A stretch of 64,000 nt of DNA from Blastomonas sp. SL216 (lineage in GTDB: Bacteria; Pseudomonadota; Alphaproteobacteria; Sphingomonadales; Sphingomonadaceae). The notes below the pieces were generated by a model, which was not told the DNA's origin, made no database searches, and saw nothing but the letters and a program-made list of their open reading frames with translations. This document shows positions 39,808 to 57,364 of the stretch, in pieces; within the stretch, counting starts at the first letter, position 1; every line of letters begins with the position of its first letter. The DNA is taken from the NCBI GenBank assembly GCA_026625625.1, contig CP113055.1, positions 1,738,501-1,802,500 of the forward strand, read 5' to 3'. A program made the translations under genes and the position numbers.

Positions 39808-39832
39808 ACTTGTTGCGAGGCCTTTTTTGGAC

Positions 39833-40708
39833 TTAGCTAAGCCACTGACTGAGGGCGGGAAGGAATGGTCCCAAAATCGTAACGTGATTGGCGGCCAATT
39901 CTACAAACCGCTGATAGGCGCCAACATAACCCTGCGACCCCCGAGTCGCCTGGAGGTCCACGACGGCTTTGAGCAATGCTGTCCGGTCCGCCTCGCTCGC
40001 GACCTGCTGATTTATCGTGGAAGTCAGCGACTGGAAAAGCGTCTGGAAGTCCATGGTGTTCTGTGACGCATCGACAGAATTGATAACAACTCGGTTCTGA
40101 TGGCCGGTAATGTCACCGCTGTGCAGATTCGCGACGTTGCCCTGGATCGTTATAGAGGCCCCCGAAGCTCGGTGTTTTTCGTTCATACTGAAACTTATCC
40201 CCTCACCTGAGACGCCCTGCCGCTCGAGACTGACTGCCCAGTCCAGTACCAAGTCACGTACTCGGTCAATTACTGAAACCAACATACTCTTGCTAAAAAC
40301 GATGTTGAAGGCGCAATTCGTCAATCCCATTGCTTCTTTCACCATGGTTTCCAAATGCGCGTCGAGTCCGATCGAGCACGTTGTCCCTTCGCCGCTTGCG
40401 AGAGCCTCGACGCTCGACAATGGTTCCCGCAAAAACACTTGCGATAATGCCGCAACACTCATGGTATCGCCCGTCGCAGGCCTTTGGCCGAAGCGATCTC
40501 TCTTCATGAGAGTCCCATGCCCGCGACGGTAAGACGGAAGGTTTCCCTCATCGACGCCGACATATCCGGTCAATTCTCGATCTACCCAGTCGATGGCGTC
40601 GGTCAGTTCAAGCTTGACGGCAGCCAGCTTTACCTTCCGGAGTAAGTCGGTAACGCGCACCGATGGATCGAGGGCACTTTGCTGAATCTCTGCAATTAAA
40701 CCGCTCAA
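39833..40708 (-). CDS. AbiTii-domain protein (copy 1)
   Basis: 291 residues from TTG 40708, behind GGGAG; this start aligns exactly with the paralogue's N-terminus (LSGLIAEIQQSALDPSVRVT versus MAGLVENIQAQALDANVKVS). The same order of blocks follows: DLLRKVKLAAVKLELTDAID, WVDRELTGYVGVDEGN and, near residue 210, SITIQGNVANLHSGDITGHQ. It is about 35 residues longer at the C-terminus than copy 2. Tandem, co-directional and diverged, the two may form a hetero-oligomer. No known partner gene adjoins them. Confidence 0.85.
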   Translation of the reverse strand: MSGLIAEIQQSALDPSVRVTDLLRKVKLAAVKLELTDAIDWVDRELTGYVGVDEGNLPSYRRGHGTLMKRDRFGQRPATGDTMSVAALSQVFLREPLSSVEALASGEGTTCSIGLDAHLETMVKEAMGLTNCAFNIVFSKSMLVSVIDRVRDLVLDWAVSLERQGVSGEGISFSMNEKHRASGASITIQGNVANLHSGDITGHQNRVVINSVDASQNTMDFQTLFQSLTSTINQQVASEADRTALLKAVVDLQATRGSQGYVGAYQRFVELAANHVTILGPFLPALSQWLS

Positions 40709-41396
40709 GGCGCGCTCCCAGGACAAATTGATGTGTCGAACTCGGCGAATATTATGCCGATCTACCAGCTATACTAGCAGGTGATTTCTTGGAAGCACTC
40801 AAAATGGTTCTGCGAAAGGCTTCGGCCCACTAGACTGCAATCCAAGCGCGGTGTCCACAATAGTAGCCGCGTGCCAGCCTCTTGTTTCAAAAATAATGGC
40901 CGCTTTGGTCTCCTCAGTAGTTTAAAGGGGGCTGACCGATTCGGCCAGCATCCGGGCCACCTCATCTGCATCGAAATGATGTCTGCTATCAAGCGGTCGG
41001 AGGCGAAGCTACCACGACCGATATGAGGGCATTTTGCTGACCGGCATCGCCGGTTCCAGAAGTTCAGCTTTTGGGCCGCTTTTGGAGTTTCAGCTTCTGG
41101 CAGAAACGAGGCTGAAGCTGCCATTCTGCTTTCCGGAACGTAAATCTACCCTTCCCATGACCGGAAATAGATTGCGATAGGAACGCGGAAATGCATACCG
41201 GAACTGACATGAGGAGTTTTAGACTTGCGTCTCGCTTTGCGGACTTCGAGTGACCAGCAGGTGGATGGCGACGCCGTGCTGGCTTCAGATCCTAAAAAGC
41301 TGTCGATCATCAGAGCCTGATGAGGTCTTTAAAGAACCGATTGCCGCCCGGCTGGGTCGGATGAAAATCCGCAGATAGCCTGTCCGGAAACTCGCA
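40709..41396. other. Gene-free region between AbiTii pair and protease operon
   Basis: About 690 bp without a supported gene. Several short frames exist on both strands, none with a ribosome site or family motif. The region is AT-richer than the backbone. It probably holds the AbiTii promoter and decayed DNA. Confidence 0.4.
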
Positions 41397-41729
41397 CTAA
41401 AGTGTTGTGAATGTCGCTTCGGGCATGATTTGAACCGGGATATTGCCGATAGATTCGGCAAGGGCCGTGTGAGACATGCCATCGCTCACCTTCGCCGACC
41501 ATGCTCTCATGCCCGCTAAGTACGTTAGCTCGACATCATCCGTAAGTCGCTCACGAAGCTGGGCGTCGATTGCGGCGCAGCGCGCGGCGAGCTCGCCGGT
41601 CAGCTGCTCAGAACGCTCATGTGCCGCCTGCACATCCTGTTCGGGCGGTAGCGGCGCGAAAGGGTCAAGGCTTTCGCGCCAGCCCTCCGGCAGGACCGAT
41701 TCCAGAGGCATGAGCAAAAAGGTCGTCAC
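41397..41729 (-). CDS. Small protein downstream of the subtilisin-like protease
   Basis: 110 residues, predicted mostly helical (LPPEQDVQAAHERSEQLTGE, then LAARCAAIDAQLRERLTDDV). It has no signal peptide or membrane helix. It begins 20 bp after the protease stop on the same strand, so it is probably the third gene of that operon. The family is not recognised; it could be an inhibitor or adaptor for the protease. Confidence 0.6.
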   Translation of the reverse strand: MTTFLLMPLESVLPEGWRESLDPFAPLPPEQDVQAAHERSEQLTGELAARCAAIDAQLRERLTDDVELTYLAGMRAWSAKVSDGMSHTALAESIGNIPVQIMPEATFTTL

Positions 41730-41749
41730 GCCCCTGCGTATAACTTAAA

Positions 41750-43111
41750 CTATGCGCGAATGCGACCCGCGCCGCCATAATTGAGATTGTAGGGGTGAGG
41801 CTTTACCGGATCCAACGTTGAGAGCAGGCTCAGGAACAATGCGCGGGGATGCCCCAACAGCGCAGGATTGGCGCTCATCCGGCGCGCAGCAATCCCGGCA
41901 ACGAGTGGCGTTGCCATTGAGGTGCCGCTCATGCGCGCATAGCCATTGCCGGGGATGGCCGCTATCACATCAACCCCTGGCGCCGAAAGGTTGGGCACCG
42001 GATATTGTATGCGCCCGTCCTGACCTGACAGCTCCCAATCGCTGAAGATCGCAGTGATGTCTTGGGAATCGCTCGCCCCTACGCTCAGCGTGGTGCGATA
42101 ATTGCCCGGCGAGCCGTGGAATCCGGCGCCCTTGCGGCCGTCATTGCCGATCGCAGCAATCATCGAGATCCCGGCTGCCAGCCCATTCAGTACCGGCTGC
42201 TCAAGATAGTTGTGATATCCTGACCCGCCCAGCGAAGCGTTGACCACATCGACGCCGCGCCGACCCGGCCTGAACTGGTGCTGCACCAGCCAGTCCATTC
42301 CAGCAACGATCTGCTGTAGATAGCCGAACAGGCGGCCCTGAGCATTAGGTGTCGTGAGCACCGCGGCCACAGCGAGATCGGCATCAGGGGCCGCACCGCA
42401 ATTCCGGCCTGCCGCGATCGAGCTGACATGCGTGCCATGATCCCCCGCATCCCGGGCTGTGCTGCCAACGACCTGCCCATGCTTGTCGAACTCGCGGAAC
42501 TGGACAACCTTGCCCGCGAATTCCGGATGGGAATCGTCGATTCCGGTATCCAGTATCCCGATCATGATCCCCCGACCGCCGGACTGGCCAGAGGCGAGGC
42601 CGACCTTCGTGAGGTGCCAGAATTGGCCATTGGCCGCCGCTGCAGCGCCGGCAGCCGCGTCGATAACGGTTTCCGTGTCGGGATGGACCATATGCACTTC
42701 GACATTGGGATAGACCGAGACGCCCGGCTGGCTGTAGATCGCTTCGAGATCAAGCTCGTCGCGGTCGACCAGGATCGCGCCGACTCCAGCCAGCACGCGC
42801 ATGTCGGCCGGTGGCTCTGACTGGGGTTCGATGCTCGCAATCTTGGGCAAACCAAAGGTCGCGGCTTCGGATGCCGCGCCGAAGTTTTCGAACCGCGTGC
42901 CAGGATTGTCGATCCCGCTCGCAATTTGGCTGAGCACCGCGTGGCGGCGGGCCAACAATTCTTCGGGCGGCAAGGCTTCAGCGGTGGTCGCCGCAGCCTC
43001 GGCCTCGCTGGGCAGAGCAGCGAACACGCCGCCGGTCATGCCGAACATTTCGACCGAACCATCGAGAACGCTTTCATCGACGAAAATGACATAGCCTGAA
43101 GTGGTGGACAT
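41750..43111 (-). CDS. Subtilisin-like S8 serine protease
   Basis: 453 residues. The triad is complete: D188 (GILDTGIDDSHPE), H225 (DHGTHVSSIAAG) and S398 (SGTSMATPLVAG), with oxyanion N323 (AIGNDG). A ~170-residue N-terminal extension contains an I9-like pro-region (ADMRVLAGVGAILVDRDELD, then EAIYSQPGVSVYPNVEVH). No signal peptide or membrane segment is visible, so it should be intracellular, which is unusual for the family outside conflict or signalling loci. ATG 43111 follows GAAGGAGAAA. It lies 71 bp after a secreted-protein gene, in one operon opposite a Crp-type regulator. Confidence 0.92.
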   Translation of the reverse strand: MSTTSGYVIFVDESVLDGSVEMFGMTGGVFAALPSEAEAAATTAEALPPEELLARRHAVLSQIASGIDNPGTRFENFGAASEAATFGLPKIASIEPQSEPPADMRVLAGVGAILVDRDELDLEAIYSQPGVSVYPNVEVHMVHPDTETVIDAAAGAAAAANGQFWHLTKVGLASGQSGGRGIMIGILDTGIDDSHPEFAGKVVQFREFDKHGQVVGSTARDAGDHGTHVSSIAAGRNCGAAPDADLAVAAVLTTPNAQGRLFGYLQQIVAGMDWLVQHQFRPGRRGVDVVNASLGGSGYHNYLEQPVLNGLAAGISMIAAIGNDGRKGAGFHGSPGNYRTTLSVGASDSQDITAIFSDWELSGQDGRIQYPVPNLSAPGVDVIAAIPGNGYARMSGTSMATPLVAGIAARRMSANPALLGHPRALFLSLLSTLDPVKPHPYNLNYGGAGRIRA

Positions 43112-43182
43112 GGTATTTCTCCTTCTAGATGGCCCTTATTGCGGCCAGACAGTGCGGGTATTGCTAGCGCGGGGTGGCGATC

Positions 43183-44529
43183 CTAGCTTCCGGCAGCAGC
43201 TGGGACCGCGGCGTCTTCCTTCTCTTTCTTGGCCTCGGCTTCCGCTTCGATCAGCGCTGCAAGCGCATTCGCTTGGGTTCGCCGCTCGACTTCGCGTTTG
43301 CTTGCGTTGGTCTCCTGGTCGCGCAGTTCGATACCGGCGGCGACCGCCGCGTCTACCACCCCTGCCAACGCGTCCGCGCCGCCGGTGCTGGTGTATCCGA
43401 TCGACATCACCTCACCTGTTTGAGCGAAGGTCGCCGCGACTGCGCGCGATCCAAACATGCCGCTACCGTCGAAGGCGATTTTCTTCAGCGTTCCAATCTG
43501 CGGCACTTTTACCGTTGCCTTGGCCTTGGTGTCTTCATAGGCCGAGAGAGCAAGCGGTTGCTCGTCCTCGGAGAGGTTACCAGCCGAGAACGCTGATCGG
43601 GGTTCAAGCTTGACGGTGACCGCGCCCGGATCACGATAGATCAGCGCGCGCCGTTCGGTCGTCGGGGTAGGCCTTGCGTCGCGTCCGGTCGCCGAGGCCA
43701 CCGAAGCCTTGAAGTCTAGCACCTGCCCGTAACCGACCAAATCGAGCGCCGCCTGCAACGCCGGCTCCTCCAAATCCTCGAACCAGACGGTGAGATCAGC
43801 TTTGGTGGGGCTGGGCAAATTGGTGTCGGATCGAGGATCGATCGCGGCAGTCGGTGTCCAGATCGCCGGGTCGGGGCTGACTGTCAAACGCGAGAGCGTA
43901 TCGGCAAGAGCCGCTTCGGTGCGGGTGATCTGCATGAGCAGGTTCTTCGATGCCCCGTCATCAATCAAGCTCTGCTTGAGGCGCGTCAAAGCCGTCTCCA
44001 GCCCCGCCTTTTGGGAAAGCAGCCTGACAATCTCATTCTTGCACTGGATGGGTTTGAAGTCCGGTTTTCCGTCAGCCGCAGCCGCAGCTACTGGCAAAGC
44101 CAACGGCACGCCCATCGCGGTGGTAACGGCGAATGTCGCCGCCTTGATCACCGCGGCGGCAATCTTTCCACCCTGCCCGGTTGAAGAGGCATTGAAGCTC
44201 TTTATTGTGCCATTGTCATGGAATTCCAGCTTGATTTCCCGATCGACCAGCAAGTTGCCCTTCGGATTGACCTTGATCTGTGCGCCGCGGACATAGACCG
44301 GCTTGATCGCCGTTACGGTGTCCATCGCAAACCCTACACCCTGCGCATTTGGGCAAGCCGTAATCATGTGGCTGACCGCAAATCCGATCTTCACCTCGGG
44401 CAGGTGGTAATCGAGGGTCAGTTCTTCGGCTTCACTTTCCGCTTTCGGTTTCGTTCCGGCATGGGCCGGAGTGAACCACACCAGGCTCGCCGTGGAAAGT
44501 ATCGCGGCGATGACATTCGATTTGCGCAT
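43183..44529 (-). CDS. Exported protein of unknown function in protease operon
   Basis: About 448 residues from ATG 44529. A signal peptide (MRKSNVIAAILSTASLVWFT, cleavage near AHA-GTK) precedes a mature domain beginning ELTLDYHLPEVKIGFAVSHM, with beta-rich stretches later. A possible helical segment appears around IAAAVIKAATFAVTTAMGVP. The C-terminus is a charged coiled coil (ETNASKREVERRTQANAL, then EAEAEAKKEKED). I do not recognise the family. It is the first gene of the protease operon and is divergent from the Crp-type gene. Confidence 0.65.
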   Translation of the reverse strand: MRKSNVIAAILSTASLVWFTPAHAGTKPKAESEAEELTLDYHLPEVKIGFAVSHMITACPNAQGVGFAMDTVTAIKPVYVRGAQIKVNPKGNLLVDREIKLEFHDNGTIKSFNASSTGQGGKIAAAVIKAATFAVTTAMGVPLALPVAAAAADGKPDFKPIQCKNEIVRLLSQKAGLETALTRLKQSLIDDGASKNLLMQITRTEAALADTLSRLTVSPDPAIWTPTAAIDPRSDTNLPSPTKADLTVWFEDLEEPALQAALDLVGYGQVLDFKASVASATGRDARPTPTTERRALIYRDPGAVTVKLEPRSAFSAGNLSEDEQPLALSAYEDTKAKATVKVPQIGTLKKIAFDGSGMFGSRAVAATFAQTGEVMSIGYTSTGGADALAGVVDAAVAAGIELRDQETNASKREVERRTQANALAALIEAEAEAKKEKEDAAVPAAAGS

Positions 44530-44713
44530 TGGTGTTGCTCCTGAGTATGTTGCGGCATGCATCGGATCATCTGGAGGCGATCAGCCAGACCCGAAAACAC
44601 GGGTGCCATTTCTGAGGGAGCTTCGCGCGTGATCTTCGTCACGCTTGCCGCTCCCTTGGGCATTTTCGCCATCAGCCGCAGAACCCATGCATTGCCTGCA
44701 GCCAGGACCCCCT

Positions 44714-45367
44714 ATGGACCGGGTTGAGCGACTGGCCGCGCTCGCGTCCTTCTTTGCGTGCAGCGCAGCGGAGGCGGAGCGGCTCAACGATGCCATGGCC
44801 TTCGTGACCTACCCCCATGGCCAGAAGCTGATCCATCAGGGCGATCTTGGCGCAAAGGTTTGGATCGTGCTTGCGGGGCAGGCGCAATTGCAGGTGATTG
44901 GCGGCGACGGACAGGTACAACTGCTGATGGCGCATGGCCCGGGTGAGTTGTTCGGCGCGCTGCCGCATGAACGCGTGTTCGTGTCTGATGTCGTCGCGCG
45001 GGATCGGATCGCGGTGCTCGAGGTTGCGACATCGCGCCTAGCCCGGTTGGTGCAGGAGGAAGCGCGGATCGGCAGCGGGCTGGCAATGATCCTGGCACGC
45101 CAATATCACGCTGCGCTCGACCGGATGGCGGCGCGCATCACCCTGTCGGCCACGGGCCGGGTCTACTCGGAACTGCTCAACGCGGCAGGCGATGGCGACA
45201 CCATCGCTCCGCCACCGGTGGTCGCAGCGCTCGGCCTGATGGCACAGACCACCCGCGAAACCGCATCCCGCGCGATCAACGGGTTGATGCGCCGCGGCAT
45301 TGTGCGGCGTGATGCGGGCCGACTGACGATCGTCTCCCGCAAGTTGCTTGAGGACATGATCATCTAG
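44714..45367 (+). CDS. Crp/Fnr-family transcription regulator
   Basis: About 217 residues from ATG 44714 (MDRVERLAALASFFACSAAE). A cyclic-nucleotide-binding-type beta-roll spans residues ~15-120 (KLIHQGDLGAKVWIVLAGQA, then GPGELFGALP). The C-terminal Crp-type HTH reads VVAALGLMAQTTRETASRAINGLMRRGIVRRD. No Fnr cysteine set is present, so it is not an oxygen sensor of the Fnr type; key cAMP contacts are only partly matched. It is divergent from the exported-protein/protease operon and convergent with the TPR/SLOG gene, so it is a plausible local regulator. Confidence 0.88.
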   Translation: MDRVERLAALASFFACSAAEAERLNDAMAFVTYPHGQKLIHQGDLGAKVWIVLAGQAQLQVIGGDGQVQLLMAHGPGELFGALPHERVFVSDVVARDRIAVLEVATSRLARLVQEEARIGSGLAMILARQYHAALDRMAARITLSATGRVYSELLNAAGDGDTIAPPPVVAALGLMAQTTRETASRAINGLMRRGIVRRDAGRLTIVSRKLLEDMII

Positions 45368-45400
45368 AGCAGAACACGTTTTCGGCACGATGATACTTGG

Positions 45401-46828
45401 CTAGAGCACGCTCCAGATAGGCTCGCGGCCCGATGTCAGAGGCAGTTCGCCCAGTTCTTCCACTGCAGCGTCCCACCCGGCCCGGACCAATGCCATCGCG
45501 GTGGCTTCATCGCTGACCACCGCGCCGGGATTCGCAACCGCTGCAAGCGCGGCTGCGCGCTGCAAGAGAGGCGCAGGAGCCTGATCCGGATCACATGGCG
45601 CCAAGATTATGGCCACCCGGGCGCTATCGCCGGCACTGGCGAGACGCCTTGCTTCGGTCGCTGCCGATAAAAGATCAGCGTGAATCGACCATGTCGCTTC
45701 GTCCGCCCAGACCACGGTCTGTAAACGTTGACGCTTAACACCTTGGCCTTTCTTCGATCCAGCCAACCGCGTTCCCTCGATGATCGTGAGCGAACGCCCG
45801 CCATCGCGCCACGATGCCAGTTGCGGACGCAAGCTCTCCCCCTGGCCGACCACGGTGACCGCACAGGCCTGGCTGGCAAGCACCTGGGCGTTACGCACCG
45901 CGCGCCCCATCGCGACGTAATCTGCATATTCCACCGCCAGCGGGAGCGAAGGATCGGCCAGGCCATAGACAGTCGTGGTGGTGGCCTGCGCCAGTGCCCA
46001 ATCGAACCGGCCTGTCCAGTGTTCGCCAAAAGCCGCGACTGACAGCTGGCGGAACTGGTCGATAGGATATGGCAGCACGACGTGCAGTTCTGCGGCAGGG
46101 CATTGTGCATCGCGCCAAGAGATAAAGGCCTCTGCGAACAGCAGGTCGGCCCCGGCAGCCAAAGCGCCAAATGCAAAGCCCGGACGCTCGCTGGCGATGA
46201 ACTGCGCGATCCCCGCTGCGACGGCGGAGTCATCCGGGTCGAGACCGGCGATGCCGCTGAAATGGACGCTGGGCGGCGGACGGTGCGCATCGAGCCACGC
46301 TGCATCCCAGCCCTTTTCGGCGATGATCAGCGCGAATTGTACAATTGTTGCGGCGTGATCCTCCCAGGCATGCGGCTGGCGGGCGATGGCCTTGCGCAGC
46401 GCAGCGCGCGCCTCGACCTCCTGGTCAAGCAGCAGCAACGCCTCAGCCCGCGTCGCCTCGCGCCAATATGGGGTTTCGCCCTCCATGGGATTGGCAGCCA
46501 TCAGATCGAGCACATCTTGTGCAAAGCGTCTGGCCTGCGCGGGTTTGCCAGCGAACAGCGAGAGCGATGCGGCGTTTATCAGCGGATAGCTCGAGCCGGC
46601 AATGGCTGCAGCCTTGGCGTAAAGCTGCGCCGACTGATCGAACAGGCGCGCCTGCTCTGGCCCTGCCCCTGCCCGTTTGGCCCGATCTTTGACAAGCCGC
46701 GCCTGCAGGCTGAGTGCTTTGGGATCGCTTGCGGAGTCGAGCAGGCCATACTGCGCCATCAGCGTCCACGCCCGCTCCGGCGAACCGGAACGGGCGAGGC
46801 GCAGAATCTGGGTGTAGGGGGTTAGCAA
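45401..46828 (-). CDS. TPR protein with SLOG-like nucleotide-binding segment
   Basis: 475 residues from TTG 46828, behind AGGA at good spacing. Residues ~1-170 are TPR-like helical repeats (PYTQILRLARSGSPERAWTL; NAASLSLFAGKPAQARRFAQ; EALLLLDQEVEARAALRKAI). Residues ~215-300 contain FAFGALAAGADLLFAEAFIS, then AELHVVLPYPIDQFRQLSVA. This is the GxxxGAD...E pattern of SLOG-type domains found with TRAFs-binding/DUF4071 proteins. A Rossmann-like C-terminus follows. It ends an operon that begins with a TIR protein. Function inferred: sensor of a nucleotide signal. Confidence 0.78.
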   Translation of the reverse strand: MLTPYTQILRLARSGSPERAWTLMAQYGLLDSASDPKALSLQARLVKDRAKRAGAGPEQARLFDQSAQLYAKAAAIAGSSYPLINAASLSLFAGKPAQARRFAQDVLDLMAANPMEGETPYWREATRAEALLLLDQEVEARAALRKAIARQPHAWEDHAATIVQFALIIAEKGWDAAWLDAHRPPPSVHFSGIAGLDPDDSAVAAGIAQFIASERPGFAFGALAAGADLLFAEAFISWRDAQCPAAELHVVLPYPIDQFRQLSVAAFGEHWTGRFDWALAQATTTTVYGLADPSLPLAVEYADYVAMGRAVRNAQVLASQACAVTVVGQGESLRPQLASWRDGGRSLTIIEGTRLAGSKKGQGVKRQRLQTVVWADEATWSIHADLLSAATEARRLASAGDSARVAIILAPCDPDQAPAPLLQRAAALAAVANPGAVVSDEATAMALVRAGWDAAVEELGELPLTSGREPIWSVL

Positions 46829-46847
46829 GGGGTTGAAAGTCCTGTTC

Positions 46848-47516
46848 TCAGAGGAATTCGATCATGCTGGCCCCGTTGGGCGGGTGAATGCCGCCGTGAC
46901 CGAACATCACAAGGCTACTCTGATTTGAAGCAGGTTGGAGAGGACGGCGTGGCTTCTTGAAGACGGGTGATCTGCCATCGTCGGAGTCAACGAAATCGAA
47001 CACGATTGGGAAGCGCGTCATGATCGCCGCTCCAGACGACGACCCAAGTTCGCGTAAGGCACTCTCACCGTCGACATCAAATGAACACACGGTGTGGTAA
47101 TTGCTGCTTGGCAGCTTGTGACGTTTCAAGTTCTTTATGATCGGTGCGGATGGCTGGCCCCTGATTGCCATTGGAGCCACGATATTCTCGCCAAAATATG
47201 TTGTGGTTTCATGAAAAGAACCAACTGTGCCACCATTTTCCGCTTCCTCCGCATGGCTGTGATCACCGCTGATTGCTACGAACACCAAACAGGGTTGCTT
47301 GGCGGCAAATGCCATGTCGATCCCGCCGACACAGTGGATGGGTGGAGCGATTTCCCAGGAATCTTCTACCTTGCCCTGCTCGATCTCATCCCAAGCCTCC
47401 ATCCGATTGCCCGGCGTCTTGCGCTTAAGGACCGTTCTGACCTTCGCGTAACCGTCGTCTCCGTTGCCAAGCATAAACAGAAAAATGTCGCTGTGGGCCT
47501 GTTCATTCTCACTCAT
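46848..47516 (-). CDS. Unknown protein between TIR and TPR/SLOG genes
   Basis: 222 residues from ATG 47516, three bases after the TIR gene stop; a GTG directly precedes it. It is soluble and without a signal peptide. Segments that stand out are DIFLFMLGNGDDGYAKVRTV near the N-terminus, CVGGIDMAFAAKQPCLVFVA with a following GDHSHAEEAENGG, and MIEFL at the end. The order of beta and alpha elements could fit a nucleotide- or ligand-binding fold, but I recognise no family. Its tight place in the operon suggests it works with the TIR protein. Confidence 0.68.
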   Translation of the reverse strand: MSENEQAHSDIFLFMLGNGDDGYAKVRTVLKRKTPGNRMEAWDEIEQGKVEDSWEIAPPIHCVGGIDMAFAAKQPCLVFVAISGDHSHAEEAENGGTVGSFHETTTYFGENIVAPMAIRGQPSAPIIKNLKRHKLPSSNYHTVCSFDVDGESALRELGSSSGAAIMTRFPIVFDFVDSDDGRSPVFKKPRRPLQPASNQSSLVMFGHGGIHPPNGASMIEFL

Positions 47517-47519
47517 CAC

Positions 47520-49097
47520 TCACTCCTCCAACCGCTTGCGAAAATTCACGAGGTTTGATCGCCAATCCGCACGTTCCGGATCGAGCCGCGTCAGCTCCCG
47601 TGCGATTCCCAAAGCCCTGAAGAGCATCGCGCGCCTAATCGGCGGCGCTTCGAAAGACGCGAGGTAACCATAGATCTCCATCTGCTGCGACCGGATCTTG
47701 CGATTATTTGGGTTCTCGGAGGCAAGCTGGTCCGCCAGCCTCAATGCCTGACGCCGAACGCTGCTAGCATCTTCGCGCCGTCCGGCCTGCTCCAGCGCGA
47801 CGCTCTGCCACATCAGGTTGAAGACCAGATCATAAGGCGCGCGCGAGGCAACCTCGTCATTGCCAGCCAACCGCTCGCCGAGTTCGACCGCAATCCGGCA
47901 CTTTTCGAGCGTTGCGTCGTCGACCGCTTTGGCTAGAGCGTCGATAGCGCACAGGTTGCCAGCGACCAGGGCCGTGGTGCGCCGCCATTCGGGATTGCGA
48001 CTTCTCCACGCCCGAACGCCGGATAGCAGCCCCCAACTCTGGCGAAGCTCTGCCTCGGCCTGTGCACCATTCCCCTCGGCTTGGGACAGAATTGCTAGAC
48101 GATTGAGGCTTAGAGCATGATCGAACCGGCGCTCCGGATCGCCTGGCGCTGCGTCCAGCAGGCTCAGCGTTGCACGCGCCCGTTCGCTGAGATTGCGCCG
48201 CGCCAAGGCATAGTTTTTGCGGAATATGGCATCCTCGCCGAGCCTGCCCACCACCCGCGCACGCCGTTCAAGGCTGTCGGGCGAGAGCGCAGTCAGATTC
48301 TGCTGCCCTTCGTAATAGGCAAGCGCGCGCTGGTTCACGCGAGTCATCACGGCGACTCCCGCCGCGCCATCGAGATCTTCGCGCAGATCCGTCAGCATAT
48401 ATTCGATCAGCCCTTCGGCCGCAGCCTGCTGGCGTTGCGCTTCGCCGCGCGCTTGAAGGGCGATTACTGTCATCACCGCCATCATTAAGGCAATTGCGCA
48501 GGCCAGCCCCGTGACGGCCATCACGCGCCGTATCTGCCTTTGGCTGTCGCGCTGCACCAGCGCATCGAGCGGTACGTCCATGACGCCGGCCACCACCTTG
48601 AGGAAGCCGAGGCGATAGCCGTCGCCTTCCTTGCGCAGGTCAGCCGCCAGGGGTTCGCCGCCATGATGGAGGGCCGCGGGGAAGGCGTCCTCAGGCTCGC
48701 CGCAAAGCAGCGCCGCCAGGATCGGGCGATCGGGATGCAGTTCCCGGAACAGCGCGATTTCGCGCGCCACCCAGCGCGAGACCCCGGCATCGGGCGAGCA
48801 CAGCACGATCAGCGCCTGCGAGGCTGCGAGCGCCTTGCGCACGCTGGCCGATAGGTCGGTTGCGGCGGGGAAGTCCTCACGATCGCGAAAGATCGCTCCG
48901 ATCCGGCCATCGTCCCCCGCCGGGCGCATGTGACGCGGCAGGCGATAGCTTTCCAATTTGCGGTGCAGCCGTTGGGCCGCGGTGATATCCGCGTGGCTAT
49001 AGCTCAGAAATGCCCGAAAGGACGGCGTAGCCGCGCTCCTCCCGTCGCTTGCCTCCACGCATCTGCCCCCCAAGCGCGACGACAAACCCAATGTCAT
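47520..49097 (-). CDS. TIR-transmembrane-TPR protein
   Basis: 525 residues. A TIR domain (bacterial TIR_2 type) covers ~27-150: FRAFLSYSHADITAAQRLHR, IFRDREDFPAATDLSASVRK, then ALIVLCSPDAGVSRWVAREI with E113 as the candidate catalytic Glu. One membrane helix (~192-215, VMAVTGLACAIALMMAVMTV) puts TIR in the cytoplasm and a TPR-like helical region (~240-525, for example ALSLNRLAILSQAEGNGAQA) on the other side. TIR domains of this kind can cleave NAD+ or make cyclic ADP-ribose signals. It is the first gene of a three-gene operon with an SLOG-like partner, as in Thoeris-type logic. Confidence 0.88.
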   Translation of the reverse strand: MTLGLSSRLGGRCVEASDGRSAATPSFRAFLSYSHADITAAQRLHRKLESYRLPRHMRPAGDDGRIGAIFRDREDFPAATDLSASVRKALAASQALIVLCSPDAGVSRWVAREIALFRELHPDRPILAALLCGEPEDAFPAALHHGGEPLAADLRKEGDGYRLGFLKVVAGVMDVPLDALVQRDSQRQIRRVMAVTGLACAIALMMAVMTVIALQARGEAQRQQAAAEGLIEYMLTDLREDLDGAAGVAVMTRVNQRALAYYEGQQNLTALSPDSLERRARVVGRLGEDAIFRKNYALARRNLSERARATLSLLDAAPGDPERRFDHALSLNRLAILSQAEGNGAQAEAELRQSWGLLSGVRAWRSRNPEWRRTTALVAGNLCAIDALAKAVDDATLEKCRIAVELGERLAGNDEVASRAPYDLVFNLMWQSVALEQAGRREDASSVRRQALRLADQLASENPNNRKIRSQQMEIYGYLASFEAPPIRRAMLFRALGIARELTRLDPERADWRSNLVNFRKRLEE

Positions 49098-49299
49098 CGA
49101 GTGACCATGAATGCTAACTCATCTGAGTCCTTAATGCTACATGCGTGGCGACACGTTAGGCTTCAAGATCGCTTCGATCGATGACCGTCTCGGCGACGGC
49201 CAACGTAGCCCGGACGACGCCATTTAAAGGGCAAATGATGAGGAGGGCTACGAGGATGGTATCCAAAGCGATGCCATCGCGCGAGCGGCAGCTTTCGGG

Positions 49300-49364
49300 A
49301 TGTCCGCTTTTGGGATTGGCTGTTCACCCGGCCAATGGCCGAAATTAGGGCGCAAAGCGGACAT
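49300..49364. repeat. Long-spaced 11-bp inverted repeat
   Basis: ATGTCCGCTTT (49300-49310) and AAAGCGGACAT (49354-49364) are perfect inverted copies with a 43-base spacer. They lie in the 304-bp gap between the TIR gene and the nucleotidyltransferase-HEPN gene. They could be ends of a small dispersed repeat or a large hairpin between transcripts. The rest of the gap shows no gene. Confidence 0.5.
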
Positions 49365-49401
49365 CATCAATCCAAACTTGCACATGAGGTAGCTTGTCAA
49401 A

Positions 49402-50328
49402 TCAGGCTGTACTGGTCGCCGCTGCCAGTTTTTCAATCCGCGCAGAACATATGGCATGCACAGCACGGCCCAGTTCCTCGACGCACCCGCCGAGCCAGAG
49501 CAGCTCTTCTTCGGTGATACGATAATGCTTCGAGTAGCGCGCCTTCACATAGGCCTCTTTGAGCTTCTCGAACCGGGCGCGGTCGATGCGCGTGTCGCGG
49601 GGCCAAGCATCGACCAAACGCATATCGATACGCTCGGCCTGGGCACGAAGGAAACCGAGATTATGCACGTGCGGCGTGTAGAAAGTGCAGACCAGCAGCA
49701 CGCAATGGTAAAGGCCTTCAGAGGTCTGGTGCAGGTCAAACGCCGCCTGCTTGTGGTACCCCTTGCCGATCAGAAACTGCGCGCTCTCGAACCGCTTCAT
49801 TGAGTTCGGAAACCACTCGTCAAAATACTCCTGCGCCATCGCCAGCGCCTGCTCGGGCGTCTTGGGCTTGGGTGTGTGAAGTTCCCGCTCATCCGCCTCG
49901 TGCAAGGCTATGCCGTCCCTTGCCACGTCCATGAAGAAATAGCGGCCATGCGCCAGCCCGTCGTTCACCTCCTGTAGCGTGTGAACGATGAAGTTGACCG
50001 GCGTGTGCAGCGTCCGGTCGATGGCCAGCTCGCGGATAAGCCGGTCCTCAAGCTTCAGCCAGTAATCGACCCGCTCGGTGAGCCGCTTGTCGTTGACGAT
50101 GATCAGCAGATCGAAGTCGGAGCGATAGCCCTTGGCGGTGTGCGGCTCATCGACCCAGCCACCGCGCGCATAGCTGCCATAGAGGATCAGCTTCTCGATC
50201 CGGCCCTTCTTCTTCCATTTGTTCGTGGCGAGCGCGAGCGCGTCTTCGAACTCCTCGAAGATGATCTGCTTCACGCGCTCAAGCTCGCGCTGCTTGTTGG
50301 CAGGAAGATGATCGAGATCGGTTCGCAT
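49402..50328 (-). CDS. Fused nucleotidyltransferase-HEPN protein
   Basis: 308 residues from ATG 50328. The N-terminal MNT-type nucleotidyltransferase has KLILYGSYARGGWVD (G51-S52) and catalytic D71-x-D73 (RSDFDLLIIV), as in MntA-like antitoxins that add AMP to HEPN toxins. The C-terminal half (~170-308) is a HEPN-type helical domain (RFESAQFLIGKGYHKQAAFD, then HQTSEGLYHCVLLVC and HVHNLGFLRAQAE). In HepT-MntA these are two genes; here they are one chain. Possible roles are self-regulated RNase or tRNA/nucleotide modification in defence. Confidence 0.88.
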   Translation of the reverse strand: MRTDLDHLPANKQRELERVKQIIFEEFEDALALATNKWKKKGRIEKLILYGSYARGGWVDEPHTAKGYRSDFDLLIIVNDKRLTERVDYWLKLEDRLIRELAIDRTLHTPVNFIVHTLQEVNDGLAHGRYFFMDVARDGIALHEADERELHTPKPKTPEQALAMAQEYFDEWFPNSMKRFESAQFLIGKGYHKQAAFDLHQTSEGLYHCVLLVCTFYTPHVHNLGFLRAQAERIDMRLVDAWPRDTRIDRARFEKLKEAYVKARYSKHYRITEEELLWLGGCVEELGRAVHAICSARIEKLAAATSTA

Positions 50329-50393
50329 GGTCGTATCCCTTGTGAAAGGCCGAAGGGTTGAAGGCAAGAAAAGTCGCGCCCGGATCGGGGCCA

Positions 50394-51332
50394 TCAGGAT
50401 GGCGGCGACACCCTGAAATCCCAGACCGGGATGTTGAAGGCGCGGGCCTTGTCGACGAGATTGTCCTGGATGCCGGTGCCGGAGAAGACAACCAGCCCGA
50501 CCGGCATGGCCTCGATCATCCGGTCGTTGCGCTTGAAGGGCGCTGCCTTTTTGTGGCGGTTCCAGTCGGGCCGGAAGGCGACCTGGGGCACGCCGCGGGT
50601 TTCGGCCCAGCAGGCAGCGGCGCGTTCGGCGCCGGTGGGTGTGGCGCCATGGAGCAGGACCATGTCGGGATGCCGGGCATGGATCCGATCGAGCGCCGTC
50701 CAGATGTGCAGGTGATCGTTGCATGACGGACCGCCGCTGAACGCAACCCGGGTGCCGGCAGGCAGCAGTGCATTTGCCTTGTCGCGCAGGCGCTTGTCGA
50801 GGAAATCGCGGCTGTCGATCATCGATGCGGTGAGCGTCCGATGGTTGATACGAGAGCCGGTGCGCGGGGTCCAGGCCTTGCGCATATGGGTGCGGAACTG
50901 GCCGGCGGCCGCATCGCGGAAAAATTCCATGGTATCGCGCCGCTCGATCAGGGTGATGCCTTCGGCGATCGTGCGTTCGAGTTCGACCGAGCGGACCTCG
51001 CTTCCGTCCTGTTCGCGCTGCCGGGTGCGCTGGTCCTGTTCGTTGCGATCGAGTTCGATCTCGACGCGTTCGGCGGCGCGGTGGAAGATATTGACGAGAT
51101 TCCAGAGCAGGTTTTCGAGGTCCGGCTCGATCCTTGTGTCGGCAAGGCTTGCAATGAGCCCATCGAACATGTCGGCAACGGCACCTGTTGCCAGCCTTTC
51201 GTCGGGAAGCGGCCGTGGATCGGGTTCGTCCTCGAAGGGCCGATAGCCATAGAGCTGCATTTCCTGGAGCAGGAGTGCGCTCGGTCCGGTCTCGCCATCA
51301 TCATGGCCGTTGATGTCGGTATCGTATGTCAT
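50394..51332 (-). CDS. DUF2493 (YspA/SLOG-like) protein
   Basis: 312 residues from ATG 51332, behind GAGGAATATTC. The C-terminal third is the DUF2493 domain: RVAFSGGPSCNDHLHIWTAL, MVLLHGATPTGAERAAACWA, then VPQVAFRPDWNRHKKAAPFK and RNDRMIEAMPVGLVVFSG. This belongs to the SLOG superfamily, which binds nucleotides or related ligands. The N-terminal two thirds are helical. The gene is a standing member of the helicase/Toprim backbone of these elements; its ligand is unknown. Confidence 0.9.
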   Translation of the reverse strand: MTYDTDINGHDDGETGPSALLLQEMQLYGYRPFEDEPDPRPLPDERLATGAVADMFDGLIASLADTRIEPDLENLLWNLVNIFHRAAERVEIELDRNEQDQRTRQREQDGSEVRSVELERTIAEGITLIERRDTMEFFRDAAAGQFRTHMRKAWTPRTGSRINHRTLTASMIDSRDFLDKRLRDKANALLPAGTRVAFSGGPSCNDHLHIWTALDRIHARHPDMVLLHGATPTGAERAAACWAETRGVPQVAFRPDWNRHKKAAPFKRNDRMIEAMPVGLVVFSGTGIQDNLVDKARAFNIPVWDFRVSPPS

Positions 51333-51454
51333 GTGAATATTCCTCGGATGCAGGCAGGTCCGCGCCTCTCGCGGCCTTCGCAGCGACTGCCAGCGCCGCG
51401 CGGGGCGGGCCTGCACCTCGCGCGCAGCGCGCAGGCCGGAGCGAAGCGGAGGAT

Positions 51455-51592
51455 GGCGGGACCCGGGGCTATTTTGCCTCGCGATGCAAAGGGGCGAACG
51501 CCCCGGCGGAAAATAGCGCCGGGACCGCCATTGCCTGCCCGCACCTCGCGGCGCAGTCGCCTCCGGGCGAAGGCCAGGGGCGCAACGCCCCT
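51455..51592. promoter_or_regulatory. Nested GC-rich hairpins between DUF2493 and Toprim genes
   Basis: Outer arms around GGCTATTTTGCC (ending 51478) and GGAAAATAGC (from 51508) pair almost fully across 51455-51529, enclosing a perfect GGGGCG-AA-CGCCCC hairpin (51491-51504). A second hairpin, AGGGGCG-CAA-CGCCCCT, lies at 51576-51592. The 328-bp gap has no gene. These are strong candidates for a structured leader RNA or processing element. Confidence 0.55.
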
Positions 51593-51660
51593 GCATGCGG
51601 GTTTGAGACCGGCACGATGATGGCACGGCCAGGAAGATGACGGCCTGCCGGCAAGCGTGG

Positions 51661-52707
51661 CTAGCCAGCCCCCAGGAACCGCACGGCATCGCAAGGTCTG
51701 AGCTGAGATCTCAACCGCGCCGACAAGCAACAGACGCCCTGAGCCACCAGGTCGCTGTTGAAATCGTCGCGCTCTGCCCGCAGCGCCACCGTCTCGACGC
51801 CACGGCCCATTGCACGCTCGGAAAGCCGGACGAACGCGCCCTCGCCTGCCGGGTCGTTGTCGCATGCGACATAGAGGCGCTTCAGCGCTTGCGGGAATTC
51901 GAGAGCGGCAAGATGCGCGGCCGAAAGCGCAGCGATCAGCGGCATGGCCGGCATCGCCTGACGCAGCGAGAGCATGGTCTCGATCCCCTCGCCGGCTGCC
52001 ATGACCTCGCCTGCGCTGCCGAACCTGACGCCGGATCCGAGCAGACGTCCCATCGCCCGCCTCGGGGGCTTCACAGGCGCCTTGGCCAGGCCGCCCGGAT
52101 CGAGCCAGGTGCGATGCACTCCGGTCAGACTTCCTTCCGCATCGGTAACGGCCGCAATCAGCGCGGGCCAGCCTGTCTGTATCCCCGGCAGATCGTCTGC
52201 GCCCGGCCTGTAGAAGCAGCGGGGATGAAAACGCAACGCAGCGCAGCCTGCGGTTGCGGTGATTCCGCGTGCCGCAAGATAGGTTGCGGCAAGCGTCGCA
52301 TCGATTGGCCGGGACGCTGCCCAGAGCCGCTGTGCCGCGATCAGAGAGCTCTGGCCCAATCTGGATCGCGTCGGCCTTCCCAGCGATATCGCCGGTTCTG
52401 CAGGCAGGCTGAGGAACCGTCTTGCCTCGGCCAGCGTGTCGGCCAGGCACGAATGCCCGCACACTGCTGCGATGATGTCGAGCAGGTCGCCATGCTCGCC
52501 ACTCGCGGCATCGGTCCACTTTCCCGGCAATGCCCTGCCTCCGCCCCGGTCAGACAAGCGCACATAGAGACTGCGCCCGGGTTCATTGTGCACATTGCCC
52601 ACGAACCAGTAATGGCCCTCGCGCTTGCCATTGGAGAGATAGCGGCGGCACACCGCCTCGGCATTGTCGGCCAGGCGGCGCGCGATATCGGATGGGGATG
52701 CGGTCAT
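51661..52707 (-). CDS. Toprim-domain primase-like protein
   Basis: 348 residues from ATG 52707. The N-terminal part resembles a zinc-free primase lobe (WFVGNVHNEPGRSLYVRLSD, GDLLDIIAAV). The Toprim core has the glutamate in MAAGEGIETMLSLRQAMPA and the Asp-x-Asp motif in KRLYVACDNDPAGEGA. Toprim enzymes make primers or nick DNA; here it likely helps replicate transferred single strands. It follows the strawberry-notch gene by 11 bp on the same strand, an arrangement seen on many sphingomonad ICEs. Confidence 0.92.
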   Translation of the reverse strand: MTASPSDIARRLADNAEAVCRRYLSNGKREGHYWFVGNVHNEPGRSLYVRLSDRGGGRALPGKWTDAASGEHGDLLDIIAAVCGHSCLADTLAEARRFLSLPAEPAISLGRPTRSRLGQSSLIAAQRLWAASRPIDATLAATYLAARGITATAGCAALRFHPRCFYRPGADDLPGIQTGWPALIAAVTDAEGSLTGVHRTWLDPGGLAKAPVKPPRRAMGRLLGSGVRFGSAGEVMAAGEGIETMLSLRQAMPAMPLIAALSAAHLAALEFPQALKRLYVACDNDPAGEGAFVRLSERAMGRGVETVALRAERDDFNSDLVAQGVCCLSARLRSQLRPCDAVRFLGAG

Positions 52708-52718
52708 GCGGGGCTCCT

Positions 52719-55700
52719 TCAAGCGGCCTTGCGCTCGTGCAGTCGAACCACCGGAAACCGGTCGATCAGCCGGGCGAACACGTCGGCGCCAGCAGCCCCT
52801 GCCGGCACGTAGAGCTTCAGTTTCCACGAGACGATCTCAGGGATCAAGCCCATCGCCTTGAGCCGCTCGACGCCGAGATCGTTGAACCCGAAAAGCTCGA
52901 TCCGCCATTCGTTCATCGAGCGCACGCGGCGAAGGGTCTGGCCTTCGGCGATCTCGAGCGTGGCAGCGCCTTCGCCCAGCAGGCGCCAGGCCTCGTCGGC
53001 AAAGATGCGGACACTGTCCTCGCCGGTCTCGCTCGCTGCCCAGGCAGCGGATACCTTGCGTCCGATGATCCGCTCGCCCGTATCGGTCTGGAGCCGGTAG
53101 ACCCGCGCCGATTCCTGGGGAAGCCGCTTCCAGATCGGCAGCAGCAGCCCTGCCACCATATGGAGTGTCGAGGTCTCGAACGGAGCGATTTCGCCGAGTT
53201 CCGAGCTCCAGGCCGTGCAGAAGCGGGCTTCATCGACCGGCTTCCAGTGCGACTGCGCGAATTCCTCCTCGAGCATCCTGGTCTTCTCCAGCGGCCGCTG
53301 AAGCGCGACGCGCCGCTGGACGCCGCCCTGGTCATCGATCAGGCTGCGCGCACGCAGCTGGACGGCAGCCCTGCCCGAGCGCGTGTTCAGCAGAAGCTCG
53401 CCGCCGCGTGCCCGGGCCAGCTCGAGCGCGTCGTCGAGCGCCAGCGGCACGATCCGGTCCTTCCGCTCGATGGTCAGCAGCCGGGTTTCCGCGCCGGTGC
53501 CGGGATGCGTGTAGATAGTCCGGCGGCCGGAGACGACGAAGCTTTCGGCGCGCAGCGTCTCGAGGCCAGTCTCGAACGTCCCCGAGGCGATGGCTCCTTC
53601 GATACGCGCTGCAAGCAGGCCTTCGAAGCTCTCGAACAGGATTTCCTGCAGATCGATCGTCAGGGCGAGCATGCGGTTGAGAAAGGTCGTGATCGGCGGC
53701 AGTTCGTCCTTGAGCCCGGTATCGTCGGTCAGCACCAGCCCGGTTGCGGCCTCGAACGTCCGGAGCGAACAGCCATCGATCCTGCCCTCGGCGATCAGCC
53801 GGTAGAGCTGACGAAGTGCGTCACGCGCATGGAAGGATTCGAGATTGTCCTCGGGCCGGAACATGTTCTGGCCGCCGGTCTGACGCTGGCCGCGCGTGAT
53901 CGCGCCCAGCGTGTCGAGCCTGCGCGCAATGGTCGAGATGAAGCGCTTCTGCGCCTTCACGTCGGTCGAGACCGGACGGAATAGCGGCGGCTGCTTCTGG
54001 TTCGTGCGGTTGGTGCGGCCGAAGCCCTGGATGGCGCTGTCGGCCTTCCAGCCCGGCTCGAGCAGATAATGGATGCGGCGACGCTGGTTCCTGGCTCCGA
54101 GATCGGCATGATAGGACCTGCCCGTCCCGCCCGCTTCGGAAAAGACGAGAATGCGCTTGTCATCGTCCATGAAGGCGCGCGTTTCGGCAAGGCTGGCGCT
54201 GGCGGGCCGGTTCCGGACCGCAAAGCGCAGCGCGGCCCCTTCCTGCCTGACCGGCACGATGCGCCGCGAGCGCCCGGTCACCTCGGCGACCGCATCGGCC
54301 CCGAAATGCTGGACGATCTGGTCGAGTGCGCCCGGCACGGGCGGCAGCGCGGCAAGCTTCTCGATCATCGCATCGCGGCGGCGGCAGGCCTCGCGATTGA
54401 GCACCGGATTGCCATCGGTGTCGAAGACAGGGCGCGATGCCAGATGGCCCTCGCCATCGGTAAAGGGCTCGTGGAGCTGCACCGGAAAGCTGTGCGCAAG
54501 ATAGTCGAGCACATATTCGCGCGGCGTGATGTCGACCGAGACATCGTCCCAGTCCTGCGCAGGGATTTCGGCAAGCCGCCGCTCCTGCAGCGCCTCGCCG
54601 GTCGAGACGATCTGCACCACGGCAGCATGGCCTGCCTCCAGGTCGCGCTCGATCGAGGCAATGGCCGCAGGCGTCTGCATGGCGGTGATGAGATGGTTGA
54701 AGAAGCGCTGCTTGGTGCTTTCGAAGGCCGAGCGCGCCGCCGATCGGGTCTGGGGATTGAGCGTGCCATGGCCCTGGCTGGTGACGCCGGCGGACTCGAG
54801 CGCGGCTGCCAGATTGTTGTGAATGACCTGGAAGGCAGAAGCATAGCTGTCATAGATGCGGCGCTGCTCGCCGGTCAGCCTGTGTTCGAGCAGTTCGTAC
54901 TCGACACCATCGAACGAGAGCGAGCGCGCGGAATACAGGCCGAGCGCCTTGAGATCGCGGGCGAGCACCTCCATCGCCGCCACACCGCCCTCCTCGATCG
55001 CAGCCACGAACTCGCTGCGCGAGGCAAAGGGAAAATCGCTTCCGCCCCAGAGCCCTAGCCGCTGGGTATAGGCTAGGTTGCGGACCGTGGTCGCGCCGGT
55101 TGCCGAGACATAGACGATGCGCGCATCGGGAAGCGCGTGCTGAAGCCTCAGGCCTGCCCTGCCCTGTTGCGATGGCTTCTGCTCGCCGCGAGCGCCCTTG
55201 TCGCCTGCTGCATTGGCCATGGCATGCGCCTCGTCGAAGACGATGACGCCATCGAAATCGGAGCCCAGCCATTCAATGATCTGTTCCAGCCGGCTCGGCT
55301 TGCCCGCGCGCGCCTGGCTGCGCAGCGTGGCATAGGTCGTGAACAGGATGCCCTGGTCGAGCCGGATGGCACTTCCCTGGCGAAAGCGCGACAGCGGCGT
55401 GACGAGCAGCCGTTCCTGGCCGAGCGCTGCCCAGTCGCGCTGGGCATCCTCGAGCAGCCGGTCGGACACGGACAGCCACACCGCGCGGCGGCGCCCCTTG
55501 AGCCAGTTGTCGAGGATGATCCCGGCCACCTGCCGACCCTTGCCGGCTCCGGTGCCGTCGCCAAGGAACCAGCCGCGCCGGAACCTCACCGCGCCTTCGG
55601 CATCGTCGCTCGCCGCCGCCAATGTGTCCCAGGTCGTATCGGTCGTCCAGGCACCTGCGAGATGTCCTGAATGGGCTTCGCCGGCATAGACGATCGATTC

Positions 55701-57340: not shown

Positions 57341-57364
57341 CGTGCAGCCTGGGCCTTGCAGAGT

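Follow-up and report, generated by a model that had tools for sequence, protein, structure and literature searches.

The locus lies in a window of 64,000 nucleotides of Blastomonas sp. SL216 DNA, the whole stretch analysed here, whose positions are used throughout. The sequence-only reading had placed three tightly spaced genes in it, and all three open reading frames are present on the minus strand with the order and gaps that it gave. The first (47520-49097) encodes a TIR protein of 525 amino acids, or 512 if the gene starts at 49058 rather than 49097, a possibility raised by comparison with relatives. It abuts the middle gene (46848-47519), whose frame opens at 47519 or 47516 and ends at 46848; with the start at the ATG at 47516 the gap is 3 bases and the product has 222 amino acids. 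After a gap of 19 bases follows the third gene (45401-46828), which encodes a protein of 475 amino acids (P0003) belonging to the TPR-S family. Convergent to it on the plus strand is a gene for a CRP/FNR-family regulator (44714-45367), with 217 amino acids from the ATG at 44714 in a frame that opens at 44645. An exact palindrome, CGTGATCTTCGTCACG (44628-44643), lies between the CRP gene and a divergent gene starting at 44562 and is a candidate operator. This divergent gene (43183-44562, minus strand) encodes a 459-residue protein with an N-terminus that looks by eye like a signal peptide, and beyond it lies an S8 subtilase gene (41750-43111, minus strand; PF00082, E 2.5e-38). Both are uncertain, possibly accessory members, with homologues in 5 and 2 of 80 related loci, respectively. 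Two AbiTii genes are located about 4 to 6 kb from the cassette. Searches with Rfam gave nothing at the gathering threshold in 39000-52000, and no tRNA genes were found within the window.

The TIR protein matches PF13676 (E 5e-10) and, above the cut-off, the ThsB_TIR family PF08937 (E 4.5e-8). The TIR domain covers residues 30-155 (48633-49010, minus strand) and is followed by the only strong hydrophobic segment of the protein, residues 195-213 (48459-48515, minus strand; hydropathy maximum 2.35 over 19 residues), a predicted membrane helix, in agreement with the earlier proposal of a TIR protein with a membrane helix and TPR region. The proposed active-site residue, Glu113 (codon 48759-48761), is present in the segment SRWVAREI. 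Its column is invariant in all 20 TIR sequences of alignment A2, the window protein included, and of the 72 strong TIR-TPR homologues in the 80-locus set, 71 contain the motif SxW[VI]xxE[IV].

The third protein had been read as a TPR protein carrying an SLOG-like segment. The fold was borne out, and the protein was found to belong to an already known Pfam family, TPR-S (PF20308, E 1.3e-8; 35.8 bits against a gathering score of 27.6), which at E 0.01 also matches every one of 57 aligned members, the window protein included. Structure prediction, which the sequence-only reading had proposed as a check, gave an AlphaFold model with a mean pLDDT of 94.1 and three domains. The TPR domain (residues 1-182; 46283-46828, minus strand) resembles the regulatory region of ASK1 (5ulm, Z 12.6, 171 residues aligned). 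The second domain (residues 184-353; 45770-46279, minus strand) has YpsA as its top structural match (2nx2, Z 15.9, 2.8 A, 153 residues), and the model thus confirms the predicted SLOG domain as a YpsA-like Rossmann fold; most positions of its GALAAGAD segment are invariant or nearly so in the 57 aligned sequences. One published account includes sensors of cADPr in the YpsA-like SLOG clade (PMC9503650). The C-terminal domain (residues 366-475; 45404-45733, minus strand) resembles the class III nucleotide cyclase Ma1120 (5d0e, Z 13.9, 2.2 A, 109 residues). The TPR-S family profile finds cyclases in the PDB at E 6e-4, and in a related cassette (L177) the match to Pfam Guanylate_cyc reaches E 5e-11. 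Neither of the two metal-binding Asp patterns of class III cyclases matches the window protein, which has Asp at the first aligned metal column and a gap at the second, and the domain is predicted to be eroded and non-catalytic.

The regulator matches PF00027 (E 1.3e-11) and PF13545 (E 4.8e-8), both above the cut-off, which correspond to a cNMP-binding fold and an HTH_Crp domain. The cNMP pocket pattern GE...R[ST]A has no match in it, and in the alignment to 4ev0, read by eye, the Glu, Arg, and Ser of the pocket are replaced by Ala, Phe, and Val. Palindromes of the type GTGA-N6-TCAC were scored by matches out of 10. Palindromes with at least 9 matches were found upstream of 18 of 67 CRP genes, 15 of 70 TIR genes, and 12 of 428 other genes in the same loci (Fisher p 6e-10 for CRP and 2e-7 for TIR, both before any correction for relatedness). 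At 8 matches TIR promoters hardly differed from other genes (0.24 vs 0.19), and CRP promoters stood at 0.42. In the window itself no good palindrome was found upstream of the TIR gene, the best having 7 matches; a palindrome at 48510 was rejected as an operator because it lies inside the TIR coding sequence.

All four genes were called in 58 of the 80 related loci, the TPR-S gene lies beside the TIR gene in 74, and the convergent CRP gene lies beside TPR-S in 67. Conservation of the operon across genomes, which the sequence-only reading had proposed as a check, extends to a four-gene unit, and an arrangement that recurs in so many genomes is not due to chance. Neither a non-SLOG fold, nor a missing TIR active site, nor an unconserved operon, the outcomes which that reading had named as counting against it, was found. 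The conserved CRP/FNR gene, the cyclase-like domain, and the occurrence of pNTSase1 in the middle slot of relatives were absent from it. TPR-S is patchily distributed, occurring in 2 of the 9 genomes from the genus and in 37 of 149 across the family (a count that includes its own genome), and the cassette flanks differ between genomes. Of 50,697 phage records none matched P0003, and of 72,556 plasmid records a single one did. Among the literature matches listed, no title or beginning of an abstract concerned this cassette.

The cyclase and the CRP pocket have a different status in a family of related cassettes, f139, than in the window lineage. Both cyclase Asp patterns are present in 9 of the 10 f139 cassettes retrieved (L206 fails the first pattern), and the pocket pattern GE[MI]...R[TS]A is present in all 10 of their regulators; L204 and L205 gave no match to the ARI/E pattern that follows the Asp motifs. 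Among 91 other TPR-S/CRP pairs, some of which represent one genome twice, the cyclase patterns are matched in none and the pocket pattern in a single case, L111, where by eye the Glu is at the wrong position. When aligned columns are read instead, both cyclase metal positions are Asp in 8 of 92 pairs, most of them outside f139. A Fisher test of pocket against cyclase was set aside, as the rows are related and L206 had been counted as intact despite failing the first Asp pattern. On the TPR-S tree, 82 of 84 rows with an eroded cyclase fall on one side of a single branch. The joint loss therefore counts as one contrast, and treating it as many independent losses of cyclase and pocket was rejected. 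The apparently intact state of both in f139 and their loss in the window suggest that the ancestral form, as we infer it, was a relay from TIR to an SLOG-cyclase protein to CRP.

The middle slot is occupied across relatives by two main protein types, of which the window carries the less common, and on the TPR-S tree the types have been exchanged at least 9 times. The commoner type, to which Pfam pNTSase1 ('predicted nucleotide synthetase') belongs, has a conserved Asp-Pro tail at its end in nearly all cases, the Asp-Pro being the only invariant feature across 32 chosen proteins of this type; PF20301 (pNTSase1) matches all 18 scanned members of the largest middle subfamily. The window protein, described earlier as unrecognised, indeed has no match in Pfam, PADLOC, or NCBIfam, and a sequence search of the PDB up to E 10 likewise found none. 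Its identity as pNTSase1 was rejected on the absence of any Pfam family and on profile comparisons with seven other middle subgroups of at most 7.5%. Its tail reads HGGIHPPNG and is without Asp-Pro; the motif HGGIHP (residues 207-212; 46881-46898, minus strand) contains His207, Gly209, His211, and Pro212, which are invariant in the nine sequences of alignment A6. The AF2 model, built from nine sequences (mean pLDDT 73.7), predicts a beta-sandwich, and its best structural match, a borderline one, is the DP-EP protein SO1698 of Shewanella. In Foldseek the top nine rows all belong to SO1698, the best at E 3e-3 with a probability of 0.96, and no row falls below E 0.001. The VIA comparison gave Z 8.3, 3.3 A over 117 residues, near the level of unrelated folds, with MakD (Z 7.3) and PixA (Z 6.5) close behind. 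A BFVD search with the model gave nothing usable (best E 0.04), and PDB searches with two middle profiles gave best E values of 0.16 and 0.031, which were taken for chance.

In the DP-EP family (PF08985) the C-terminal Asp-Pro, followed by an Asn, is similar to the tail of the commonest middle subfamily. Profile comparison of DP-EP gave 31% and 5.7% against pNTSase1-type middles and 0.2% against the window family, values that count against the match. In all seven neighbourhoods the DP-EP gene sits immediately 3' of a gene whose large product shows homology to the TIR protein over the stretch from TM helix through TPRs (E 6e-39 to 1e-47). This partner carries wHTH-nSTAND1 where the cassette has TIR (Pfam, 2 of the 7 scanned), and the window protein differs from DP-EP in having HGGIHPP in place of Asp-Pro. 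Between DP-EP and the window protein the likeness is one of fold and is borderline, short of establishing common descent. Over 18 hand-chosen pairs the dN of the middle gene relative to TIR had a median of 1.4, with ratios of 3.5 to 6.5 in six pairs, four of them within the window clade. Three of the 18 pairs were saturated in dS, and dS exceeded dN in all pairs with unsaturated dS. This pattern fits allele replacement and gives no support for a middle gene that is under positive selection or that evolves fast at a steady rate.

The sequence-only reading had proposed a Thoeris-like signalling or defence system. The likeness stands in its logic, with a TIR protein retaining its Glu and an SLOG-domain protein in one conserved operon, as in ThsA/ThsB. 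The cassette is nevertheless not Thoeris, because no effector domain, whether SIR2, Macro, or another, is fused to the SLOG domain, and the protein consists over nearly its whole length of TPR, SLOG, and cyclase-like domains. It also differs in its membrane-anchored TIR protein with TPRs and in the added CRP gene and middle protein. The sole Thoeris row in NCBIfam was far below the cut-off, and PADLOC gave no Thoeris match at E 0.1. TPR-S systems, for which an NAD-derived signal has been proposed, were reportedly described by Burroughs and Aravind in 2020. They share with the cassette a TPR-S protein beside TIR genes and, in many of its relatives, pNTSase1 in the adjacent slot (11 of 18, with E values up to 5). 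The cassette differs in its SLOG and eroded cyclase domains, which were located through the predicted structure, in the regular presence of a CRP gene as fourth member, and, in the window, in a middle gene from a family with no Pfam match. Pycsar combines a pyrimidine cyclase with a cyclic-nucleotide receptor effector. The f139 form is similar in having a class III cyclase alongside a cNMP-binding protein, but its receptor carries a DNA-binding HTH rather than a toxin and its cyclase is fused to TPR-SLOG. Membership of the window cassette in Pycsar was rejected on the HTH of its CRP and its unmatched cyclase patterns, cyclase and pocket both being eroded.

The cassette is built partly from known defence parts. 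Our tentative preference, held at a little short of even confidence, is for a recurring four-gene sensing cassette that would make a messenger from NAD, sense it, and control its own expression, with a DP-EP-like middle protein as trigger or restraint. The direction of signal flow, as we infer it, would begin with the membrane-anchored TIR enzyme, which may be switched on through its own TPR half and would convert NAD+, its presumed substrate, into a small nucleotide signal. This signal would be the putative ligand of the SLOG domain of TPR-S. Ancestrally, the class III cyclase on the same protein would then make a cyclic mononucleotide, which the convergent CRP/FNR regulator would read and use to switch the cassette promoters via GTGA-N6-TCAC sites. 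In the window lineage, with the cyclase predicted to be non-catalytic and the pocket lost, the SLOG signal would have to pass by contact or through another ligand. The middle protein, a predicted DP-EP-like beta-sandwich with a conserved tail, is swapped from locus to locus in the manner of a specificity part, and its probable working partner is the TM-TPR half of the TIR protein. A single-pass membrane helix should place these TPRs outside the cytoplasm, and by eye the middle proteins are mostly without a signal peptide, which counts against such pairing. Anti-phage defence is the most likely purpose, an envelope or stress response the next; a defence role is plausible.

An abortive-infection effector, in which TIR would deplete NAD+ and kill or arrest the cell, with the middle protein and TPR-S as activator and restraint and CRP only setting expression, is a rather improbable reading. 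The intact TIR Glu, the nearby AbiTii genes, and the patchy distribution of TPR-S agree with it, whereas a killer enzyme needs neither an SLOG protein kept so regularly beside TIR nor a dedicated regulator. Also unlikely is a non-defence chromosomal circuit of Sphingomonadales and Caulobacterales that senses stress or the envelope, with CRP controlling the 459-residue protein and the S8 protease in this clade. The candidate operator before 44562, the near absence of P0003 from phage and plasmid records, and the CRP-type sites ahead of some cassettes would suit it, but the rarity of both accessory genes near other cassettes, the variable flanks, and the repeated swapping of the middle gene argue against it. 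That the middle protein makes the messenger sensed by TPR-S, a role that the name of the Pfam family, 'predicted novel nucleotide synthetase' (pNTSase1), implies and that its match throughout the largest subfamily would allow, is very doubtful, given a window protein with no PF20301 match, a lone invariant Asp-Pro that offers little for an enzyme site, and a best structural match titled aspartic peptidase rather than nucleotidyltransferase.

The preferred reading of a sensing cassette can be extended, more speculatively and with a low likelihood, to a two-messenger relay from TIR through an SLOG-gated cyclase to CRP-driven transcription. In this extension the DP-EP-like protein would be a swappable trigger whose constant tail docks in the TM-TPR receptor, with Asp-Pro self-cutting in the common form; the 'nucleotide synthetase' label would be wrong, and the window cassette would have been rewired after loss of the second messenger. 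If true, TIR/NAD-derived and cyclic mononucleotide messengers, known separately from phage defence, would be joined in a single operon whose output is transcription instead of a toxin. The Pfam function label of pNTSase1 would receive a testable correction, and DP-EP proteins would gain a genomic context, that of partners to TM-TPR receptors. A natural pair for dissecting the relay is formed by the f139 cassettes, in which cyclase and pocket look intact, and cassettes of the window type, which have lost both.

The three minus-strand genes of the sequence-only reading are borne out by open reading frames at 47520-49097, 46848-47519 and 45401-46828, separated by 0-3 and then 19 bases. The first product is the TIR protein with a membrane helix that had been proposed; it matches PF13676 and ThsB_TIR in Pfam, has Glu113 and contains one strong hydrophobic helix. 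The 222-residue middle product was rightly called unrecognised, as searches of Pfam, NCBIfam, PADLOC and PDB sequences gave no match, and the third (P0003, 475 residues) matches Pfam TPR-S (PF20308). A wider scan, of which the best 80 of 188 relatives were kept as loci, revealed that the genes of this operon recur and that a fourth member had been missed. A CRP/FNR gene, in the window at 44714-45367 on the plus strand, is convergent and directly after TPR-S in 67 of the 80 loci (same strand in three further loci), so the three-gene operon is incomplete without it. The TIR-TM-TPR gene lies at most four genes upstream of TPR-S on the same strand in 74/80, a directly upstream middle ORF of at least 100 residues was called in 70/80 (three more by eye: L070, L074 and L129), and the complete set of four was called in 58/80, with some of the missing members located at contig ends. 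The genes flanking the cassette vary from locus to locus. Of 149 genomes in the family, 37 have a homologue of P0003, and of nine in the genus two have TPR-S, the own genome counted in each; the homologues lie partly outside cassettes, and the most distant ones fetched (L055-L065) are without one. Among TPR-S-cyclase genes outside the cassette, those of L064, L065 and L061 adjoin other TIR proteins with apparent SH3-like or FHA-like parts. By tree path, the TPR-S closest to that of the window belongs to a Porphyrobacter MAG (0.12), and L067, taken as the other genome of the genus, is farther (0.17); these distances would fit horizontal transfer, with caution as the Porphyrobacter source is a MAG. 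Searches with P0003 gave one match in plasmid records and none in phage records.

The SLOG assignment of the third protein holds in its AlphaFold2 model (57 sequences, mean pLDDT 94.1), in which residues 184-353 match YpsA best (2nx2, Z 15.9, 2.8 A, 153 residues). In the same predicted model, residues 1-183 best match the TPR region of ASK1 (5ulm, Z 12.6) and residues 366-475 the class III adenylyl cyclase Ma1120 (5d0e, Z 13.9, 2.2 A, 109 residues). A plain Foldseek list contains mostly TPR proteins, none below E 0.001, and the TPR-S family profile recovered cyclases in the PDB independently (3mr7, E 6e-4). The SLOG reading is therefore upheld, and the protein has in addition a cyclase remnant that had been overlooked. 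The cyclase part of P0003 matches neither metal-binding Asp pattern of class III cyclases, and the cNMP pocket positions of the window CRP are Ala, Phe and Val when aligned to 4ev0. A related family of the same order (f139) has a TPR-S match in 12 of 29 genomes, and ten of its cassettes were read (L177, L198-L206). Both Asp patterns are present in nine of the ten, L206 failing the first, and the pocket GE[MI]...R[TS]A in all ten CRPs; the TPR-S protein of L177 matches Pfam Guanylate_cyc (E 5e-11). In 91 TPR-S/CRP pairs from outside f139, some genomes counted twice, the cyclase patterns had no match and the pocket pattern matched only L111, with its Glu misplaced on reading the alignment. By alignment column, Asp occupies both cyclase places in 8 of 92 pairs, L177 included, so statements on single residues are weaker than the motif statement. 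The joint loss of cyclase and CRP pocket is a single phylogenetic contrast, because 82 of the 84 rows called eroded share the same side of a branch supported at 100 in a quick tree built from the TPR-SLOG part (L206 and L058 lie outside).

Comparison of 71 middle proteins gave clusters of 58 and nine, the latter including that of the window, with four elsewhere. The largest subfamily of the first cluster (19 members) matches pNTSase1 (PF20301) in 18 of 18 scanned, and Asp-Pro is the sole invariant across 32 members chosen by hand, a choice omitting L122, which has no Asp-Pro by eye. The nine of the window's family have a His-Gly-Gly-x-His-Pro-like tail and no Pfam match (best 0.027, DMP19, in one), and comparing its profile with those of seven other subgroups gave no link (7.5% at most). 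By pattern, 90 middle proteins comprise 70 Asp-Pro tails, 14 HGG tails and six uncaught, five of which are Asp-Pro by eye. The two types are exchanged almost freely between cassettes, as they need nine changes over 76 rows of the TPR-S tree, where 200 shuffles gave 11.4 on average and 8 at the lowest. Identities to the window for TIR, middle, TPR-S and CRP are 84, 59, 83 and 91% in L067 and 81, 36, 78 and 83% in L068. The middle protein of L123 ends in three tandem HGGIHP-like tails. HGG-like tails (HRGPHF, HDGAHP) also occur in the f139 cassettes L201, L203 and L206, of which all except L206 match the cyclase Asp patterns.

The window's middle model (nine sequences, mean pLDDT 73.7) shows a borderline resemblance to DP-EP (PF08985), the family of SO1698 of Shewanella. 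The top nine Foldseek rows are all SO1698 (best E 3e-3, probability 0.96), and VIA placed it in the top five rows, with Z from 8.3 down to 7.8 and MakD (7.3) first among the others behind it, although Z 8.3 is about the level reached by unrelated folds. PDB rows title SO1698 an aspartic peptidase and include mutants at D116 and P117; the protein reportedly cuts itself at this Asp-Pro and becomes joined to a lysine. Scans of 142 genomes of the class and 398 of the phylum gave DP-EP genes in one and six, respectively, and in seven of seven neighbourhoods (L160, L171-L176) the DP-EP gene lies directly 3' of one encoding a protein of 1,066-1,112 residues. The TIR-TM-TPR profile matches these partners across the stretch that spans the TM helix and the TPRs (E 6e-39 to 1e-47), and a Pfam scan of two of them showed wHTH-nSTAND1 proteins; beyond the cassette, the profile has a single further match in the own genome, a weak one. 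L172 carries two tandem DP-EP genes, one with an apparent signal-peptide-like N-terminus on reading. Eight DP-EP proteins all share Asp-Pro and, four residues past the Pro, an Asn; five of the eight tails read SPDP[QE][VI]xN, which resembles the IDPDIKN found in the largest middle subfamily. Profile comparison of DP-EP gave 31% or 5.7% with pNTSase1-type middles and 0.2% with the window's family. Common descent of all three is likely rather than established.

Candidate CRP operators were also found. Among exact dyads upstream of both the TIR and the CRP genes, CGTGA-N6-TCACG is the most widely shared (10/70 and 12/67), against at most three in three shuffles of the TIR set. At least nine of ten matching positions occur upstream of 18/67 CRP, 15/70 TIR and 12/428 other genes of the same loci, and at eight the shares are 0.42, 0.24 and 0.19; Fisher values for this enrichment overstate it, since the loci are related. 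In the window, a perfect copy at 44628-44643 separates the CRP start at 44714 from a start at 44562, and there is no good copy upstream of the TIR gene (best 7/10). The own genome contains six exact copies against three of a reversed control pattern. Two of the exact sites (G000:C1:1148734 and 1148760, L147) are spaced by 26 bp; they follow an ORF resembling a phage terminase on reading and closely precede an HTH-like gene.

Near the cassette, two tandem AbiTii genes (39034-39807 and 39833-40726, minus strand; PF18864, E 4e-39 and 5e-36) lie in a lower-GC stretch. On the other side of the cassette, the region 49402-60699 has element-type genes for a strawberry-notch helicase, Toprim, a YAcAr SLOG and a nucleotidyltransferase-HEPN protein, with a ParB_N hit that falls short of its cut-off, and resembles an integrated element. 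Overall, the parts and folds of the cassette are well supported, and its mechanism is one that we infer, any role in defence being putative: of the Thoeris-like system first proposed, the logic stands, but the system itself is not Thoeris.
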